Origin: Acidobacteriaceae bacterium
Lineage (GTDB): Bacteria > Acidobacteriota > Terriglobia > Terriglobales > SbA1
Assembly: GCA_003156615.1 (NCBI GenBank)
Contig: PMHI01000303.1
Span: 6,715 to 14,295 of the forward strand
DNA length: 7,581 nucleotides
Reading direction: 5' to 3'
Under the pieces are notes generated by a model. It ran no database searches. It worked only from the letters and a program-made list of their open reading frames with translations, and had not been told where the DNA came from. A program made the translations under genes and the position numbers. The stretch's first letter is position 1. Each line of letters starts with the position of its first letter. Positions 1 to 7,581 of this stretch are shown here, piece by piece.

Positions 1-266
1 AAGCCGTAGACGGCGTTGTCGTAACCGATGGCGCCGACGGTACCGCGGACTACGTTTTGGAAATCGACGTAGGCTTTGGTGGTGATTTCTCCGGCGATGA
101 CCACGAGGCCCGTGGCGGTAAGGGTTTCGCAAGCTACGCGGCTGGCGGGATCTTCGGAGAGACAGGCGTCGAGGATGGCGTCGGAAATCTGGTCGGCGAT
201 CTTATCGGGATGGCCTTCAGTTACGGATTCGGAAGTAAACAAAGCGCGGTTCTTTGCTGCTGGCAA
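1..266 (-). CDS. metK: S-adenosylmethionine synthetase MetK, N-terminal part (runs off left edge)
   Basis: MetK makes S-adenosylmethionine from ATP and methionine in the cytosol. Only the first 88 residues are in the window, against about 385-400 for the family. They match the family N-terminus closely: [21 protein letters not shown] at residues 10-30, then [10 protein letters not shown] and [10 protein letters not shown]. By alignment to the E. coli enzyme from memory, His19 (ATP/phosphate contact), Asp21 (Mg2+) and Glu47 (K+ site) are all present. The chosen start is TTG at 264-266. It gives the usual short lead before FTSES and has a GAGGAG Shine-Dalgarno 8 nt upstream, while no ATG or GTG in frame fits better. 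The SD lies in a small hairpin and is preceded by a leader of about 110 nt (separate entries). Nothing suggests damage. The family call is very secure. Confidence 0.96.
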
Positions 267-273
267 GATTTGT

Positions 274-593: not shown

Positions 594-1931
594 CTAGCGA
601 TTGGCGGCGGGGAGTTGCGTCGGCGGCACTGGGTGACCTCCGGGGGCATCGAAAACGTAGGTTTTGACCTCGCCTCCGTTTCCTTGAGCTGGGACTTCTT
701 TGCCGTTCAGCAGGAAGCTGAGGCCGGCGGCGTTTCCCGTTTTTACGATGATCTCGTGGCGGGCGCGGACAGAGGTATGTGCGGGCGCGATGAGGGTTTC
801 ACGGGCGACGGGTTTGCCGTCCGCCATGAGAGAGACCCAGGTGGTTTGCTCGGCACGGATCTGCACGGTGAAAGTAGGGGGCGGCTTCGGAGCAGCCACG
901 TGCACAATGGCCCGGGCCGGCTTAGCGCCTGGTTGGGGCGGTTGGGCGGCAGGTTTGCGCGCGGAACCGGTGGCGGCTGCCATCGGGGATGCCGGGTTTG
1001 CTGAAGGAGCGGGTGCGGCCGACGCAGACAGGCTTCGCGCCGCGGAGTTTGGGAGCGGCGTAGTGGCGACGGAGTTTGTTGCCGGAGTTCCAGCGGGCGA
1101 CGCCGGTCCTCCCCTTGGCGAACTGGCGGGACCCGCGGTCCGGGTTGCTGCTGACGCCGGAGACGAAGTTGGCGCCGGGCCAGAGGACGGAGCCGGAGTT
1201 TGATTGGAAGAGGCTACGGTGTTGGACGCTGGCGTGGGCTCGGCCTGGCGGCGAAAATTCCAGAAGGCTAGAGCCAATGTTACCAGCAGTAACGCCAAGG
1301 CCAGCTTGCCCCACGGAATCGGCGTGGAAGACTGAACGGCGGGTTCGCCGGGATTTCCTGCGGGATATTTTTGGCGGAAGCGCTGGGCGGGAAGATGGGC
1401 CGCGGAGGCACGAGTCGCGGAAGCCGGCCGCGCGGAAAAATCTTTGCTCTGATTCTGAGGATGAAGGTCTTGATCGCGAGGGTCTTCGTTGCGATTGCGT
1501 CGATCTTCATTGCGCCGATCTTCATTGCGACGACCCAGTTTGCGGCGGCTTTCTGTGCGCAGTTCGTGGTTGTGATTATGGCCGTCATCGTTGGGGTTGG
1601 CAGGAAGCTTGTAGCGGGAAGGAGCGTTGGCGACGGGCGGGAGTTTACCGGCCTGGGCGCGGAAATCCGGGAGGATAGACTGCTGCAGGAACTGACTCTC
1701 ACGCAAGGCGGTTAGATAATCGGCTACGACTTCTTCTTCGTCGAGTCCGACCTGGCGGGCGTAGGCGCGGACAAAGCCTTTATTGAAGACGCCGCCGGGA
1801 AGCTGGTCAAAGTGTTCGTCTTCGAGAGCGCGCAACATGCGGGTGCTGATTTTTGTGGTGTTAGAGATGGCATCGAGCTCAAGACCGCGCTGCTCGCGCT
1901 GTTTGCGAAGTTTTTCTCCGAAGGCTCCCAC
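594..1931 (-). CDS. rodZ: RodZ-like cytoskeletal/morphogenesis protein (HTH_25 + TM + DUF4115)
   Basis: RodZ is a bitopic inner-membrane protein that links the MreB cytoskeleton to the elongation machinery and helps set cell shape. The 445-residue protein has the full layout. A Cro/XRE-like helix-turn-helix at about 1-75 carries the family signature (LRALEDEHFDQLPGGVFNKG, 33-52; FVRAYARQVGLDEEEV, 53-68). A hydrophilic linker (about 80-205) is rich in Asn, Arg and Asp, and one membrane helix spans 208-225. A low-complexity Ala/Pro/Ser periplasmic spacer (230-352) leads to a C-terminal beta domain of the DUF4115 type (about 354-430, FTVQIRAEQTTWVSLMADGKPV). The start is GTG at 1929-1931 with AGGAG 6 nt upstream. 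It is longer than E. coli RodZ (337 aa), mainly because of the spacers. The linker holds a 15-bp tandem DNA repeat encoding RRNED-like units. It appears to be transcribed alone. Confidence 0.9.
   Translation of the reverse strand: MGAFGEKLRKQREQRGLELDAISNTTKISTRMLRALEDEHFDQLPGGVFNKGFVRAYARQVGLDEEEVVADYLTALRESQFLQQSILPDFRAQAGKLPPVANAPSRYKLPANPNDDGHNHNHELRTESRRKLGRRNEDRRNEDRRNRNEDPRDQDLHPQNQSKDFSARPASATRASAAHLPAQRFRQKYPAGNPGEPAVQSSTPIPWGKLALALLLVTLALAFWNFRRQAEPTPASNTVASSNQTPAPSSGPAPTSSPASAATRTAGPASSPRGGPASPAGTPATNSVATTPLPNSAARSLSASAAPAPSANPASPMAAATGSARKPAAQPPQPGAKPARAIVHVAAPKPPPTFTVQIRAEQTTWVSLMADGKPVARETLIAPAHTSVRARHEIIVKTGNAAGLSFLLNGKEVPAQGNGGEVKTYVFDAPGGHPVPPTQLPAANR
1501..1530. repeat. 15-bp tandem repeat inside rodZ
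   Basis: Two copies of CGATCTTCATTGCGM (M = C or A), at 1501-1515 and 1516-1530, differ only in the last base. Degenerate copies flank them on both sides (about 1481-1500 and 1531-1545). The unit is in frame and encodes repeated RRNED-like pentapeptides (residues about 134-150) in the charged cytoplasmic linker of RodZ, so copy number can change without a frameshift. Confidence 0.75.
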
Positions 1932-2143: not shown

Positions 2144-2566
2144 TTACTGGGATTTTTTATCGAGCACGATGGTGAGGTCCGCCTTGCAGGTCTTGGCAGG
2201 GTCGTCGAAGGCTGAGCCCTCGCGGTCGCCTTGGGAGGCGCGGAAGAATAGTCCCTGTTTGGTCCTGTCGGGGAGTCCAGTGAAGCGAGCCTTGCCAGCG
2301 GCGTTGCTGCCGACTTCAAGGTCAAGCTTGTGGAGGTTCATGAATCGGTACGGAATGTGGACGCGGATTTTGGCGTCATACACCGGCGCACCGTTGGAAT
2401 CATTGACCGTGAAATCCGCCGAGCATGGGCCGATGCCGCCGTCGATGACGGCAACGGTTTTGGGGTCTACCGGAGGGGTATTTTGGGCTTCGAGGATGGG
2501 CACGGAAGCGAACGCCAGCAGGAACGCGCTCGACAGCGTAATTTGGCGCCGAGTGATCATTCGCAT
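2144..2566 (-). CDS. Small secreted protein, carboxypeptidase-regulatory-like / Ig-like fold
   Basis: This 140-residue protein starts with a clear signal peptide: a basic start (MRMITRRQ), a hydrophobic core at about 10-25, and a likely cut after LEA at residue 27. The mature part is one small beta-rich domain: CSADFTVNDSNGAPVYDAKIRVHIPYRF (48-75), then LDLEVGSNAAGKARFTGLP (81-99). The 'V.D..G.PV.DA.I.V......G....T....G.A.F.GLP' pattern is typical of transthyretin/carboxypeptidase-regulatory-like beta sandwiches. Cys48 and Cys127 are the only cysteines and could form a disulfide after export. No catalytic motif is visible, and the role is unknown, perhaps a surface or periplasmic binding domain. 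There is no SD before the ATG, and a second in-frame ATG lies two codons in. It is transcribed away from the GGDEF gene. I am confident it is a real exported protein; the fold call is an inference. Confidence 0.75.
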   Translation of the reverse strand: MRMITRRQITLSSAFLLAFASVPILEAQNTPPVDPKTVAVIDGGIGPCSADFTVNDSNGAPVYDAKIRVHIPYRFMNLHKLDLEVGSNAAGKARFTGLPDRTKQGLFFRASQGDREGSAFDDPAKTCKADLTIVLDKKSQ

Positions 2567-2761: not shown

Positions 2762-3826
2762 ATGTCCGAGGCCACCGGCACGCGACTCACCCGCCAGAGC
2801 CAGGAGCTGATCATCTTCCACGACGTGGCCAAAGCGCTGACGTCGTCGCTGGACCTTGACTCCATTCTGCAGACCATCATGGAAAAGATGGCGGAGTATT
2901 TTCGTCCCGACACCTGGTCGTTGCTGATAGTGGATGAGGAGCTGAGTGAACTCTACTTTGCCATTGCGGTGGGCGAAGCGGCGGAAGCTTTGAAGAATGT
3001 CCGGTTGAAGATGGGCGAGGGTATCGCTGGGTGGGTGGCGATGCACGGCGAGCAGGTGATTTCGACCGATGTGGAACACGATCCGCGCTATGCCAAGCGC
3101 ATCGACGAGACCACGCGGTGGGAGACGCACTCGGTGATTTGCGTACCGCTGCGATCGAGGCTGCGGGTGCTCGGCGTGATCGAACTGGTGAATGTGGACA
3201 TGGCGCATTTCAGCGAGCAGGAACTTTTCTTCCTGCGGGCGCTTTGCGACTACGCCGCCATCGCCATCGAGAACGCGCGCTGGGTGAAAAAGATCCAGGA
3301 ACTGACCATCACCGACGACTGCACCGGCCTTTATAACGCGCGCCACTTGTACAAGACGCTCGAGACCGAAGTCTACCGCTCGGCCCGTTTCGGCTACCAG
3401 TTCAGCGTGCTGTTCATCGACATCGACCACTTCAAGGCCGTCAACGACACGCGCGGCCACCTGGTGGGCAGCAAGCTGCTGGCAGAAATTGGGAACCTGA
3501 TCAAAGCGCAACTGCGTTTGATTGACATTGCCTTCCGTTACGGGGGCGACGAATTCGTGGTGTTGTTGCCGCAGACCGGCAAGGATTCCGCGCTGGTGGT
3601 CGCCAAACGGCTGCGCGATGCGCTCCGCGCCAGCAGTTTCTGCCGCGAAGAGGGTCTGAATTTGAATGTGAGAGCTTCCATCGGACTGGCGACCTATCCC
3701 AACGATGCCCGCGACGCGCGCGACATCATCCGGCAGGCCGACGAGATGATGTATCTGGTGAAGAACTCGACCCGGGACAATATCGGGATTGCGCAGCGGG
3801 GAGTGATGAAGGGTGAAATTGAATAA
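2762..3826 (+). CDS. GAF-GGDEF dinucleotide cyclase, candidate Hypr type (c-di-GMP / 3',3'-cGAMP)
   Basis: This 354-residue soluble signalling enzyme has no membrane segment. A GAF sensor domain covers about 25-172 (GEGIAGWVAMHGEQVISTDVEHDPRY, 85-110; SVICVPLR and VLGVIELVN follow), and a short linker leads into a GGDEF cyclase domain at about 180-345. The catalytic parts are intact: FIDIDHFKAVND at 218-229 (metal-binding Asp220, base-contacting Asn228), the GGDEF loop at 261-265, and Lys334/Arg338 matching PleD K442/R446. The inhibitory I-site RLID (252-255) sits five residues before GGDEF, as in PleD. The odd residue is Ser237 in GHLVGSKLL, where canonical enzymes have Asp (PleD D344) to bind guanine. 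Asp-to-Ser here defines Hypr GGDEFs, which can use ATP plus GTP to make cyclic AMP-GMP. Activity is inferred, not shown. The start at 2762 has AAGGA 7 nt upstream. The gene stands alone, divergent from one secreted protein gene and convergent with another. The GAF ligand is unknown. Confidence 0.92.
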   Translation: MSEATGTRLTRQSQELIIFHDVAKALTSSLDLDSILQTIMEKMAEYFRPDTWSLLIVDEELSELYFAIAVGEAAEALKNVRLKMGEGIAGWVAMHGEQVISTDVEHDPRYAKRIDETTRWETHSVICVPLRSRLRVLGVIELVNVDMAHFSEQELFFLRALCDYAAIAIENARWVKKIQELTITDDCTGLYNARHLYKTLETEVYRSARFGYQFSVLFIDIDHFKAVNDTRGHLVGSKLLAEIGNLIKAQLRLIDIAFRYGGDEFVVLLPQTGKDSALVVAKRLRDALRASSFCREEGLNLNVRASIGLATYPNDARDARDIIRQADEMMYLVKNSTRDNIGIAQRGVMKGEIE

Positions 3827-3911: not shown

Positions 3912-4979
3912 TTACAAGTTCTCCTTGGGCTTCTGCGGCTCGGCCGCGTCCTTATCTTTCACTTCCGGATCTTTCACTTCCGGCTTCCAGGGGTTTGCGT
4001 TGGCGGGAGCATTGGGGTTTACGCCGAAGTCCCAGAGGTAGAGGTTCATGCCTTCGTTCCCCTGGATTTCAATCAGGGCGTATTCGCCGGGTTCAAGATT
4101 GTGGGTGGGGGTCAGCTTGTACCATCCGCCGCTTATGCGGTCGATGGTGGCGTTTACGAAATCCTGGTCCTGGCTGAGCTTGCCGGCGGCGTTGCGCTTG
4201 AGGGCACTCACGATGCGCTTGCCACCTTTTACTTTTACGCGCACGATGTGGAAGCGATCAAAAGGGACGATTGCTTGCGCGGGTTTCTCCTGGGGGCGTT
4301 GCGCCTCGGCGCGTGGAGCGTCGAGGCTGGGCTGGGACAGTTGGGGGGATGCGGTTTCGCCCTTCGGCGGCAGCCTGGGGTCTTGCTCGTCGACATTGAT
4401 ATAGATAGAAGGCACGGCGACGTGAACGTGCACGGATGCGTGTTCGCCCTCGAGTTCCACGGTCGGCTTGGCGCCAGCCATGGGAATGCCGCTAAAGATG
4501 TTGGCCTTGGTGTTGCGGTTGAGGTCACCCTCGGTTTGCTGCATTTCGACGAGTTGCGGCTGGCCCTGAAAGTTGTCGAGCAGGAAGATGCCGGAATCTT
4601 CCGGGAGGCGCAGTCCGGGGGCGACTTGTGGGAGCTGGGACGCTTGGGCTTCCGTCTCCTTGTCTTTCTCCTTGTCCAGGGCAGCGGCCTCGGGGATGGG
4701 GGAGGTGGCGCGGTCTTTCTCGTACTTTTCGGTGGCCGGCCAATCCACTAGGGAGGAGGGAAGTTCTTCCCATTCGTTGCGCTCGGCACTTTTGTAGCGT
4801 ACGCGGTCGCCTTTGACTTCATACTCGGTAACCATTTGGTAGGACCCGTCTTTAAGGATGAGACGACGAGCCAGGTCCTGGGCGGGGGAGTGCAGAGCGA
4901 GACTGAACCCAAACAGGGCGATGGCCATGAACAGTAACGTGCGACGGGGATTTGTTGATGCTGTGGTTGTGCGGGTCAT
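3912..4979 (-). CDS. Secreted protein of unknown function, 355 aa
   Basis: I do not recognise a named family. The N-terminus is an export signal: basic (NPRR, 10-13), hydrophobic core (LLFMAIALFGFSLAL, 15-29), likely cut after SPA at 33. The mature protein begins with a short beta-rich segment (RLILKDGSYQMVTEYEVKGDRVRYKSAERNEWEELP, 39-74), like small domains in other exported proteins of this type. A Lys/Glu-rich linker (84-112) follows, then a central region (120-200) with IFLLDNFQGQPQLVEM and VHVHVAVPSIYINVDEQDP. After a Pro-rich spacer comes a C-terminal beta-rich part (240-320) ending in EYALIEIQGNEGMNLYLWDFGVN. The tail carries a duplicated EVKD unit. No catalytic motif or lipobox is visible. 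The ATG at 4977-4979 has no clear SD, but later in-frame ATGs would cut into the signal peptide. Its stop lies 85 bp from the convergent GGDEF gene. A periplasmic or outer-surface location is inferred. Confidence 0.75.
   Translation of the reverse strand: MTRTTTASTNPRRTLLFMAIALFGFSLALHSPAQDLARRLILKDGSYQMVTEYEVKGDRVRYKSAERNEWEELPSSLVDWPATEKYEKDRATSPIPEAAALDKEKDKETEAQASQLPQVAPGLRLPEDSGIFLLDNFQGQPQLVEMQQTEGDLNRNTKANIFSGIPMAGAKPTVELEGEHASVHVHVAVPSIYINVDEQDPRLPPKGETASPQLSQPSLDAPRAEAQRPQEKPAQAIVPFDRFHIVRVKVKGGKRIVSALKRNAAGKLSQDQDFVNATIDRISGGWYKLTPTHNLEPGEYALIEIQGNEGMNLYLWDFGVNPNAPANANPWKPEVKDPEVKDKDAAEPQKPKENL
3954..3983. repeat. 15-bp perfect tandem repeat at the 3' end of the 355-aa gene
   Basis: ATCTTTCACTTCCGG occurs twice without a gap (3954-3968 and 3969-3983). 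Read on the minus strand it encodes the duplicated EVKDP/EVKDK units at residues about 334-343 of the secreted protein, in frame, in its charged C-terminal tail. Confidence 0.85.
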
Positions 4980-7414: not shown

Positions 7415-7581
7415 ATGAAAAACATTGGCGAGAACGTGGTGCGCATTGAGGCGGAGGCGCTACGCGCGCTGGCCGATCGCATTGGCGGGCCGATGGCGGC
7501 CGCGTTTCAGCGGGCCGTGGACTTGCTGTTTTCCTGCGCGGGACGCGTCGTGGTCACGGGGATGGGGAAGAGCGGGCTGAT
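7415..7581 (+). CDS. kdsD: Arabinose-5-phosphate isomerase KdsD/KpsF family, N-terminal part (runs off right edge)
   Basis: KdsD converts D-ribulose 5-phosphate to D-arabinose 5-phosphate, the first step toward KDO for the lipopolysaccharide core. The first 55 residues are present, against about 320-330 for the family. A helical lead (MKNIGENVVRIEAEALRALADRIGGPMAAAFQRAVDLLFSC, 1-41) is followed by the opening of a SIS sugar-phosphate domain, GRVVVTGMGKSGL (43-55), the family signature. The CBS pair expected downstream is outside the window, so a plain SIS-domain isomerase cannot be fully excluded. The start is ATG at 7415 with AGGA 10 nt upstream. It lies 103 bp after the channel gene on the same strand. 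Its presence supports a Gram-negative, LPS-bearing host. Confidence 0.88.
   Translation, partial: MKNIGENVVRIEAEALRALADRIGGPMAAAFQRAVDLLFSCAGRVVVTGMGKSGL

Follow-up and report, generated by a model that had tools for sequence, protein, structure and literature searches.

Which messenger does the GAF-GGDEF protein encoded on this stretch of DNA make? The stretch, 7,581 nucleotides from an Acidobacteriaceae bacterium (contig PMHI01000303.1) and called the window below, holds a gene whose product carries a serine, Ser237, where PleD has D344, the aspartate that reads guanine. The original prediction took this as the mark of a Hypr enzyme, a GGDEF protein that makes 3',3'-cyclic GMP-AMP (cGAMP) in place of cyclic di-GMP (c-di-GMP). 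Judging from its residues, we consider it highly probable that the gene encodes a Hypr GAF-GGDEF cGAMP synthase, with 3',3'-cGAMP as its predicted main product; every sequence test that could be run supports the candidate, namely the base-reading Ser, the GGDEF motif, the non-Arg residue at position 193, the catalytic residues, the match to the Geobacter Hypr structure 6d9m and the placement in a tree clade. The features on which this reading turns are listed here, with GmGacA denoting the Geobacter enzyme GacA where residues are numbered.

2762..3826, plus strand: GAF-GGDEF protein, candidate Hypr 3',3'-cGAMP synthase (354-residue open reading frame, Pfam, HMMER alignments)
2852..3268, plus strand: GAF domain, residues 31-169, sensor (Pfam, E 8.9e-20)
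3308..3778, plus strand: GGDEF domain, residues 183-339, catalytic (Pfam, E 6.8e-43)
3338..3340, plus strand: Ala193 (codon GCG), cross-dimer position; Arg in canonical enzymes, Tyr304 in GmGacA (alignment)
3470..3472, plus strand: Ser237 (codon AGC), base-reading residue, equivalent to PleD D344 and GmGacA S348 (alignment)
3515..3526, plus strand: I-site RxxD, R252-D255 (residue reading, alignment)
3542..3556, plus strand: GGDEF motif, residues 261-265, with Asp263, the Asp needed by Ser-bearing enzymes in the 'Goldilocks' model

The ATG at 2762 is favoured over a TTG at 2690 as the start because AAGGA lies at 2750-2754, 7 nt 5' of it. The identity of the base-reading residue had originally been obtained by counting back from the I-site; HMMER alignments to PleD and to Geobacter 6d9m, the check that had been proposed, confirm the count, placing Ser237, not Asp or Glu, opposite D344 of the former and opposite the Ser of the latter. 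The other residue numbers given at the outset (D220, N228, R252, GGDEF 261-265, K334 and R338) are likewise correct, and D255 completes the RxxD I-site beside R252. GmGacA converts to window numbering by an offset of minus 111 throughout (Y304 to A193, D331 to D220, N339 to N228, S348 to S237, R363/D366 to R252/D255, D374 to D263, E375 to E264 and R394 to R283). The catalytic residues of an active GGDEF domain are intact (D220, N228, D263, E264, K334 and R338), and a 29-sequence alignment shows no variation in the catalytic columns. The solved GGDEF domain nearest by sequence is that of the Geobacter Hypr enzyme, PDB 6d9m. Structure prediction reached a predicted local distance difference test score (pLDDT) of 87 with an alignment, against 34 from the single sequence.

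Ser237 is one of three marks. In an analysis of Hypr determinants (eLife 2019, PMC6456294), Ser or Thr at the base-reading site is reported to work only with GGDEF (GGDE[F/Y]) and not with GGEEF; the cross-dimer Arg, which 94% of predicted diguanylate cyclases carry, is described as replaced in Hypr enzymes, with Tyr, Ser, Ala or Gln at that site accompanying predominantly cGAMP production. The replacement is a tendency of Hypr enzymes and not strictly defining; Cabther_A1065 and Ddes1475 are reported there as Hypr enzymes that keep the Arg and make more c-di-GMP. The window protein has all three marks (S237, GGDEF not GGEEF, non-Arg A193); the original prediction had named only the first, and Ala193 in place of the cross-dimer Arg and GGDEF instead of GGEEF add to it.

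These marks travel together. We pooled residue reads from the family loci with rows from the Candidatus Sulfotelmatobacter RYN_10 genome (G004, whose locus L004 is 87% identical to the window protein), Myxococcus xanthus, PleD and Gmet, duplicates included and two gapped fragments (L031, L077) dropped. All 229 sequences with Ser or Thr at 237 carry GGD and none has Arg, Lys or His at 193, whereas the Asp237 sequences have one of these basic residues at 193 in 34 of 35 cases (the exception being L285) and GGE in 25 of 35; the eight with some other residue at 237 all lack a basic 193 and carry GGD. Because the pool was mostly gathered by similarity to the window protein, this coupling describes the family and not all GGDEF domains.

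Single genomes give the same picture. Exactly two of the 18 GGDEF matches in M. xanthus carry Ser, L303 and the GAF-GGDEF protein L305, and two Hypr cGAMP synthases, GacA and GacB, are described from this species (PMC8844925). L305, the same gene as in locus L064, is 48% identical to the window protein over nearly its full length and carries S237, A193 and GGDEF, in a gene neighbourhood that differs from that of the window. In G004, Ser occurs at two places, the orthologue L284 and a second copy at a contig end, L283; 16 other places match PF00990, some of them halves of one domain, and the 13 distinct ones comprise nine with Asp, one with Asn (L282), two degenerate (L291, L294) and one ending short (L290).

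Phylogeny places the window protein in one clade with proven Hypr enzymes. A tree of 81 GGDEF domains with the marker columns kept separated 20 canonical from 61 Hypr rows (support 99/96). To these 81 rows a second tree added 20, of which 17 were Asp-bearing, and columns 193, 237 and 263 were removed; a single change then suffices for Ser/Thr versus Asp, in a sample that left out Bd0367, Ddes1475 and Cabther_A1065. The Hypr clade of this 101-row tree holds 64 rows (support 98/79), all 59 with Ser or Thr and five with Gly, Ala or Asn, and contains the window protein, Gmet_1914 and both Ser-bearing M. xanthus proteins.

The serine is also widely conserved. A scan of genome contigs yielded 586 relatives, and the best 80 of these show 77 Ser, one Thr, one Asp and one fragment ending short at position 237, the Asp belonging to a spirochaete (L079) with Arg at 193. 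Ser237 is therefore not a sequencing accident, and conservation likewise rules out a chance substitution or misalignment. The nearest relatives are Acidobacteriaceae and Candidatus Sulfotelmatobacter records, in agreement with the acidobacterial host guessed from the letters. The gene is near-core in the order of G004, where 131 of 150 genomes match the window protein at E <= 1e-70; position 237, read in 71 of the 131, is Ser in 70 and Thr in one, and all 25 newly fetched loci from the order carry S237, A193, D263, R252 and D255. Across the acidobacterial phylum (that of G019, Silvibacterium), 92 of 396 genomes match at E <= 1e-60. All 92 loci have Asp in the middle of GGDEF; position 237 is Ser in 84, Thr in two, Gly in four, Ala in one and Asp in one, and only the Asp-bearing locus has Arg193. 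Matches extend to the phylum of the Syntrophobacteraceae genome G030 (55 of 198 genomes at E <= 1e-45; 29 Ser and one Asn in 30 automatically fetched loci, three Ser and 17 Asp in 20 hand-picked weaker places), and to that of M. xanthus (56 of 97 genomes at E <= 1e-60; Ser in all 30 loci read). In a protein database search that scored the 8000 candidates with the most shared words, the 120 best matches listed are all GAF-GGDEF proteins by Pfam, and those named by their source are called diguanylate cyclases.

Product and mechanism can be proposed by analogy with tested relatives. The enzyme would be a cytosolic homodimer binding one purine nucleoside triphosphate per GGDEF domain. Ser237, shorter than Asp, would take guanine or adenine; Asp263 of the GGDEF motif would permit a matching shift of the Mg-phosphate; and with Ala193 the Arg that prefers guanine across the dimer would be missing. 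At the ATP:GTP ratios of the cell the product would be mainly 3',3'-cGAMP, with c-di-GMP and cyclic di-AMP (c-di-AMP) as side products. The GAF domain, with a dimer helix and a ligand pocket, should act as a switch that responds to a small molecule, perhaps a cyclic mononucleotide. Product inhibition would come from the intact I-site (R252, D255, R283).

Hypr enzymes are already known as a kind, and the window protein adds a well-supported candidate to them. Geobacter GacA (Gmet_1914 / GSU1658, 6d9m) shares with it the base-reading Ser, GGDEF, a non-Arg cross-dimer residue and the I-site, and the two GGDEF domains are identical at 70 of 154 residues, ungapped. They differ in the cross-dimer residue, Tyr in GacA and Ala in the window, and in architecture: GacA, named as a response-receiver enzyme (also as 'GAF domain-containing'), has a Rec domain, whereas the window protein has a single GAF domain. 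Bdellovibrio Bd0367, which is described as controlling gliding exit from prey, likewise has Ser (S214) at the PleD D344 position and keeps the I-site, and its S214D variant is reported to be mainly a c-di-GMP synthase. Cabther_A1065, presumably of Chloracidobacterium thermophilum, an acidobacterium, is a Hypr enzyme that has been assayed and whose host would share its phylum with the window; it has the cross-dimer Arg and makes more c-di-GMP, whereas the window protein has Ala. By structure, the first Foldseek match over nearly the whole window model is Dcsbis (PA2771) of Pseudomonas aeruginosa, PDB 4zmu, 22% identical over 339 columns and listed as a diguanylate cyclase.

Several observations weigh against cGAMP as the product. 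Ser alone is no proof of cGAMP production, because a D-to-S mutant of the canonical GGDEF enzyme GSU3350 is reported to have stayed a pure c-di-GMP synthase (PMC6456294). The coupling sample was mainly gathered by similarity to the window protein, contains duplicates and does not include the two Ser-bearing enzymes with Arg that the literature describes; the clade support of 98/79 falls just under the tool's star threshold, and the bootstrap had not fully settled; and with Gly, Ala and Asn included (seven rows), the Ser/Thr label takes five changes. The remaining points concern riboswitches: of the 94 acidobacterial genomes that hold a close member of the family, only seven have a GEMM-I aptamer over the cut-off, and in five of these seven (L082, L421-L424) the deciding base is the c-di-GMP-type G.

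Geobacter GacA feeds GEMM-Ib riboswitches, whereas the close relatives of the window have few GEMM-I aptamers, and the suggestion that GEMM-Ib riboswitches be sought in the same genome, followed up in the genomes of relatives, was mostly not borne out. The window itself has no GEMM-I match at the gathering score. The searches covered 35 genomes from which 35 of the first 80 loci come, 396 acidobacterial genomes, and 66 more with deeper scoring. The 396-genome search, which found a match in 52, was shallow, with stricter filters and about 10 candidates scored per genome, and for this reason a deeper search was made, scoring about 80-110. In the shallow search, none of the 45 genomes with a best family member of 45% identity or more had a match, whereas 10 of the 47 that have a more distant member did (close group versus the rest: Fisher p 0.0018, indicative only, as the genomes are related). 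Deeper scoring of the same 45 gave none over the cut-off and two weak matches (G084, G422), and 49 further close-member genomes, most of them nearer to the window, gave the seven over the cut-off and one weak; at E <= 1e-3 the matches rise to 10 of the 94. The GEMM-I search revealed no known cGAMP receptor in the other 87. The tool itself works, because in the phylum of G030 the same search detected GEMM-I in 89 of 198 genomes, although none of its 14 control genomes gave a match.

The deciding base of GEMM-I we take to be position 20, A for cGAMP and G for c-di-GMP. Two of the seven aptamers are diverged, with A at this base and the neighbouring pair swapped:

L083:1502-1603: A-type GEMM-I aptamer
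L425:1500-1596 (complement): A-type GEMM-I aptamer

Their genomes hold a window-type Hypr gene, 75% and 83% identical, and by their bases these two aptamers might sense cGAMP, making them candidate cGAMP riboswitches. Among 70 acidobacterial aptamers fetched after the shallow search, a rough pattern could be read in about half, with A in two (L187, L246); L187 lies in G204, a genome with a distant-clade Hypr gene. As side observations, L085 and L419 are weaker look-alikes of the A-type aptamers, and L082 and L421-L424 each hold a single G-type aptamer upstream of a long open frame, mostly with a secretion-signal-like start.

The aptamers bear on the strongest alternative, that the enzyme is active but makes mainly c-di-GMP in the cell, with Ser tolerated and not changing specificity. 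The c-di-GMP type that prevails among aptamers of the nearest relatives would fit this, as would GSU3350 with the same substitution and the greater c-di-GMP output of Cabther_A1065 and Ddes1475; we nevertheless regard it as unlikely, since Ala193 belongs to the group of cross-dimer residues reported with predominant cGAMP, and Ser, a non-basic 193 and GGD are kept throughout the family as read. A cyclase that is promiscuous or has another specificity, yielding chiefly a different dinucleotide such as c-di-AMP or a mixture set by ATP:GTP, would accord with the reported capacity of Hypr enzymes for all three products (PMC6456294) and with Gly, Ala or Asn at 237 in some family members, which makes the site evolvable; it seems less likely still, as descriptions of Geobacter GacA and of Bdellovibrio Bd0367 name cGAMP as the main product in vivo and the window protein keeps the Ser. 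That the GGDEF domain is catalytically dead and serves only as a nucleotide-binding receptor is hardly credible: degenerate GGDEF receptors such as SgmT are described, but here all catalytic residues, including the general-base Glu264, stand in invariant columns and the I-site (R252/D255/R283) is present. The Hypr cGAMP synthase is the reading we carry forward.

The larger point is a Hypr-type enzyme that is near-core in an order of soil acidobacteria, mostly without the known riboswitch output. Hypr GGDEF domains have been reported as rare, 0.17% of GGDEF domains (PMC9140294), and their origin was supposed to lie in ancestral deltaproteobacteria (PMC6456294). A literature search at listing level, which did not take in Hallberg 2016 or Wright 2020, found no paper linking Hypr enzymes with acidobacteria. 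The cGAMP signal may be far more widespread than thought. We put forward tentatively, and as somewhat less than probable, that among the dominant acidobacteria of soil 3',3'-cGAMP is a second messenger both ancient and near-core, made by a GAF-Hypr family of single origin that spans Acidobacteriota, Myxococcota and Desulfobacterota, and read in most acidobacterial hosts by receptors other than GEMM-I. If these enzymes make cGAMP, annotation as diguanylate cyclase assigns them the wrong messenger, and isolates such as Granulicella, Terriglobus or Silvibacterium should contain a cGAMP receptor; what reads cGAMP where the riboswitch is absent thus becomes a testable question.

What might control the enzyme is suggested by the GAF domain, the sensor already proposed for this protein and recognised by Pfam. 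Its nearest solved relative by sequence, found by structure too, is the cAMP-bound GAF domain of Lcd1 of Leptospira (LIC_13137; PDB 5w10), described as a cAMP-activated GAF-GGDEF diguanylate cyclase that makes c-di-GMP. Of NKFDE, reported as the motif of cyclic-nucleotide-binding GAF domains, the window GAF domain, read by eye, keeps only N144 and F150, and Lcd1, read likewise, N, F and D. Most of a DExTxWxT stretch common to both is conserved among the 25 nearest loci from the order, but it varies in the wider family. Class III cyclases, searched by PF00211 only, occur in two of six close relatives (G001, G005), with none in G004 or Silvibacterium (G019), and M. xanthus has 14 matches; with PF00211 in two of six, a conserved cAMP source is not evident. 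Gating of the window enzyme by cAMP is only a lead.

Around the gene the window holds the following:

594..1931, minus strand: RodZ-like gene (HTH_25 and RodZ_C, Pfam), divergent to the Hypr gene
2144..2566, minus strand: 140-residue protein without a match in Pfam or NCBIfam; in the window, as in its nearest relatives, it lies between the RodZ-like gene and the Hypr gene
3912..4979, minus strand: 355-residue convergent neighbour (no family above the cut-off)

A RodZ-like gene lies divergent within 4.5 kb of the Hypr gene in 28 of the 71 relatives whose match begins at least 1.5 kb into the locus and so leaves room upstream, including lineages only 40-60% identical. The divergent pair is old, and a shared regulatory region is possible. 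Gene clustering found a homologue of the 355-residue neighbour near the Hypr gene in 18 of 80 loci, and in another acidobacterial branch the Hypr gene follows a gene that, by eye, resembles MoaA (21 loci, cluster C2). We considered the neighbourhood as a clue to function and set it aside: no dedicated operon was seen, and the genes nearby seem to be housekeeping ones, RodZ-like according to Pfam and, judged only by eye, MetK- and MoaA-like. Both edges of the window seem, by eye, to hold the beginning of a further gene: for an S-adenosylmethionine synthetase at 1-270 (minus strand), as in the relatives' cluster C5, and for a KpsF/KdsD-like sugar isomerase at 7415-7581 (plus strand).

Other features of the family are worth recording. 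Gly (L135, L136, L143, L177), Ala (L154) and Asn (L330) stand at 237 in members that have GGDEF and a non-basic 193; five of these six fall within the Hypr clade, L136 lying outside the tree sample, and the known enzymes give no basis for predicting which bases they choose. A second family copy occurs in two acidobacterial genomes: L283 (G004:C150), which, at its contig end, may represent a strain mixture in the metagenome-assembled genome, and G767:C4:2047412-2048341, known from its match only. Loci titled Betaproteobacteria, Verrucomicrobia and Comamonas (L024, L052 and L063) hold genes that group or read as acidobacterial or myxobacterial and are probably mislabelled; the 'Comamonas' genome, of 9.0 Mb, came up among those of the M. 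xanthus phylum. Many members of Granulicella, Edaphobacter and Terriglobus type (among them L038, L040, L041, L044-L047 and L097-L116) have lost the RxxD I-site, e.g. SLGPNNAAFRYGGDEF, which the window protein keeps, and in that branch product inhibition should therefore be gone.
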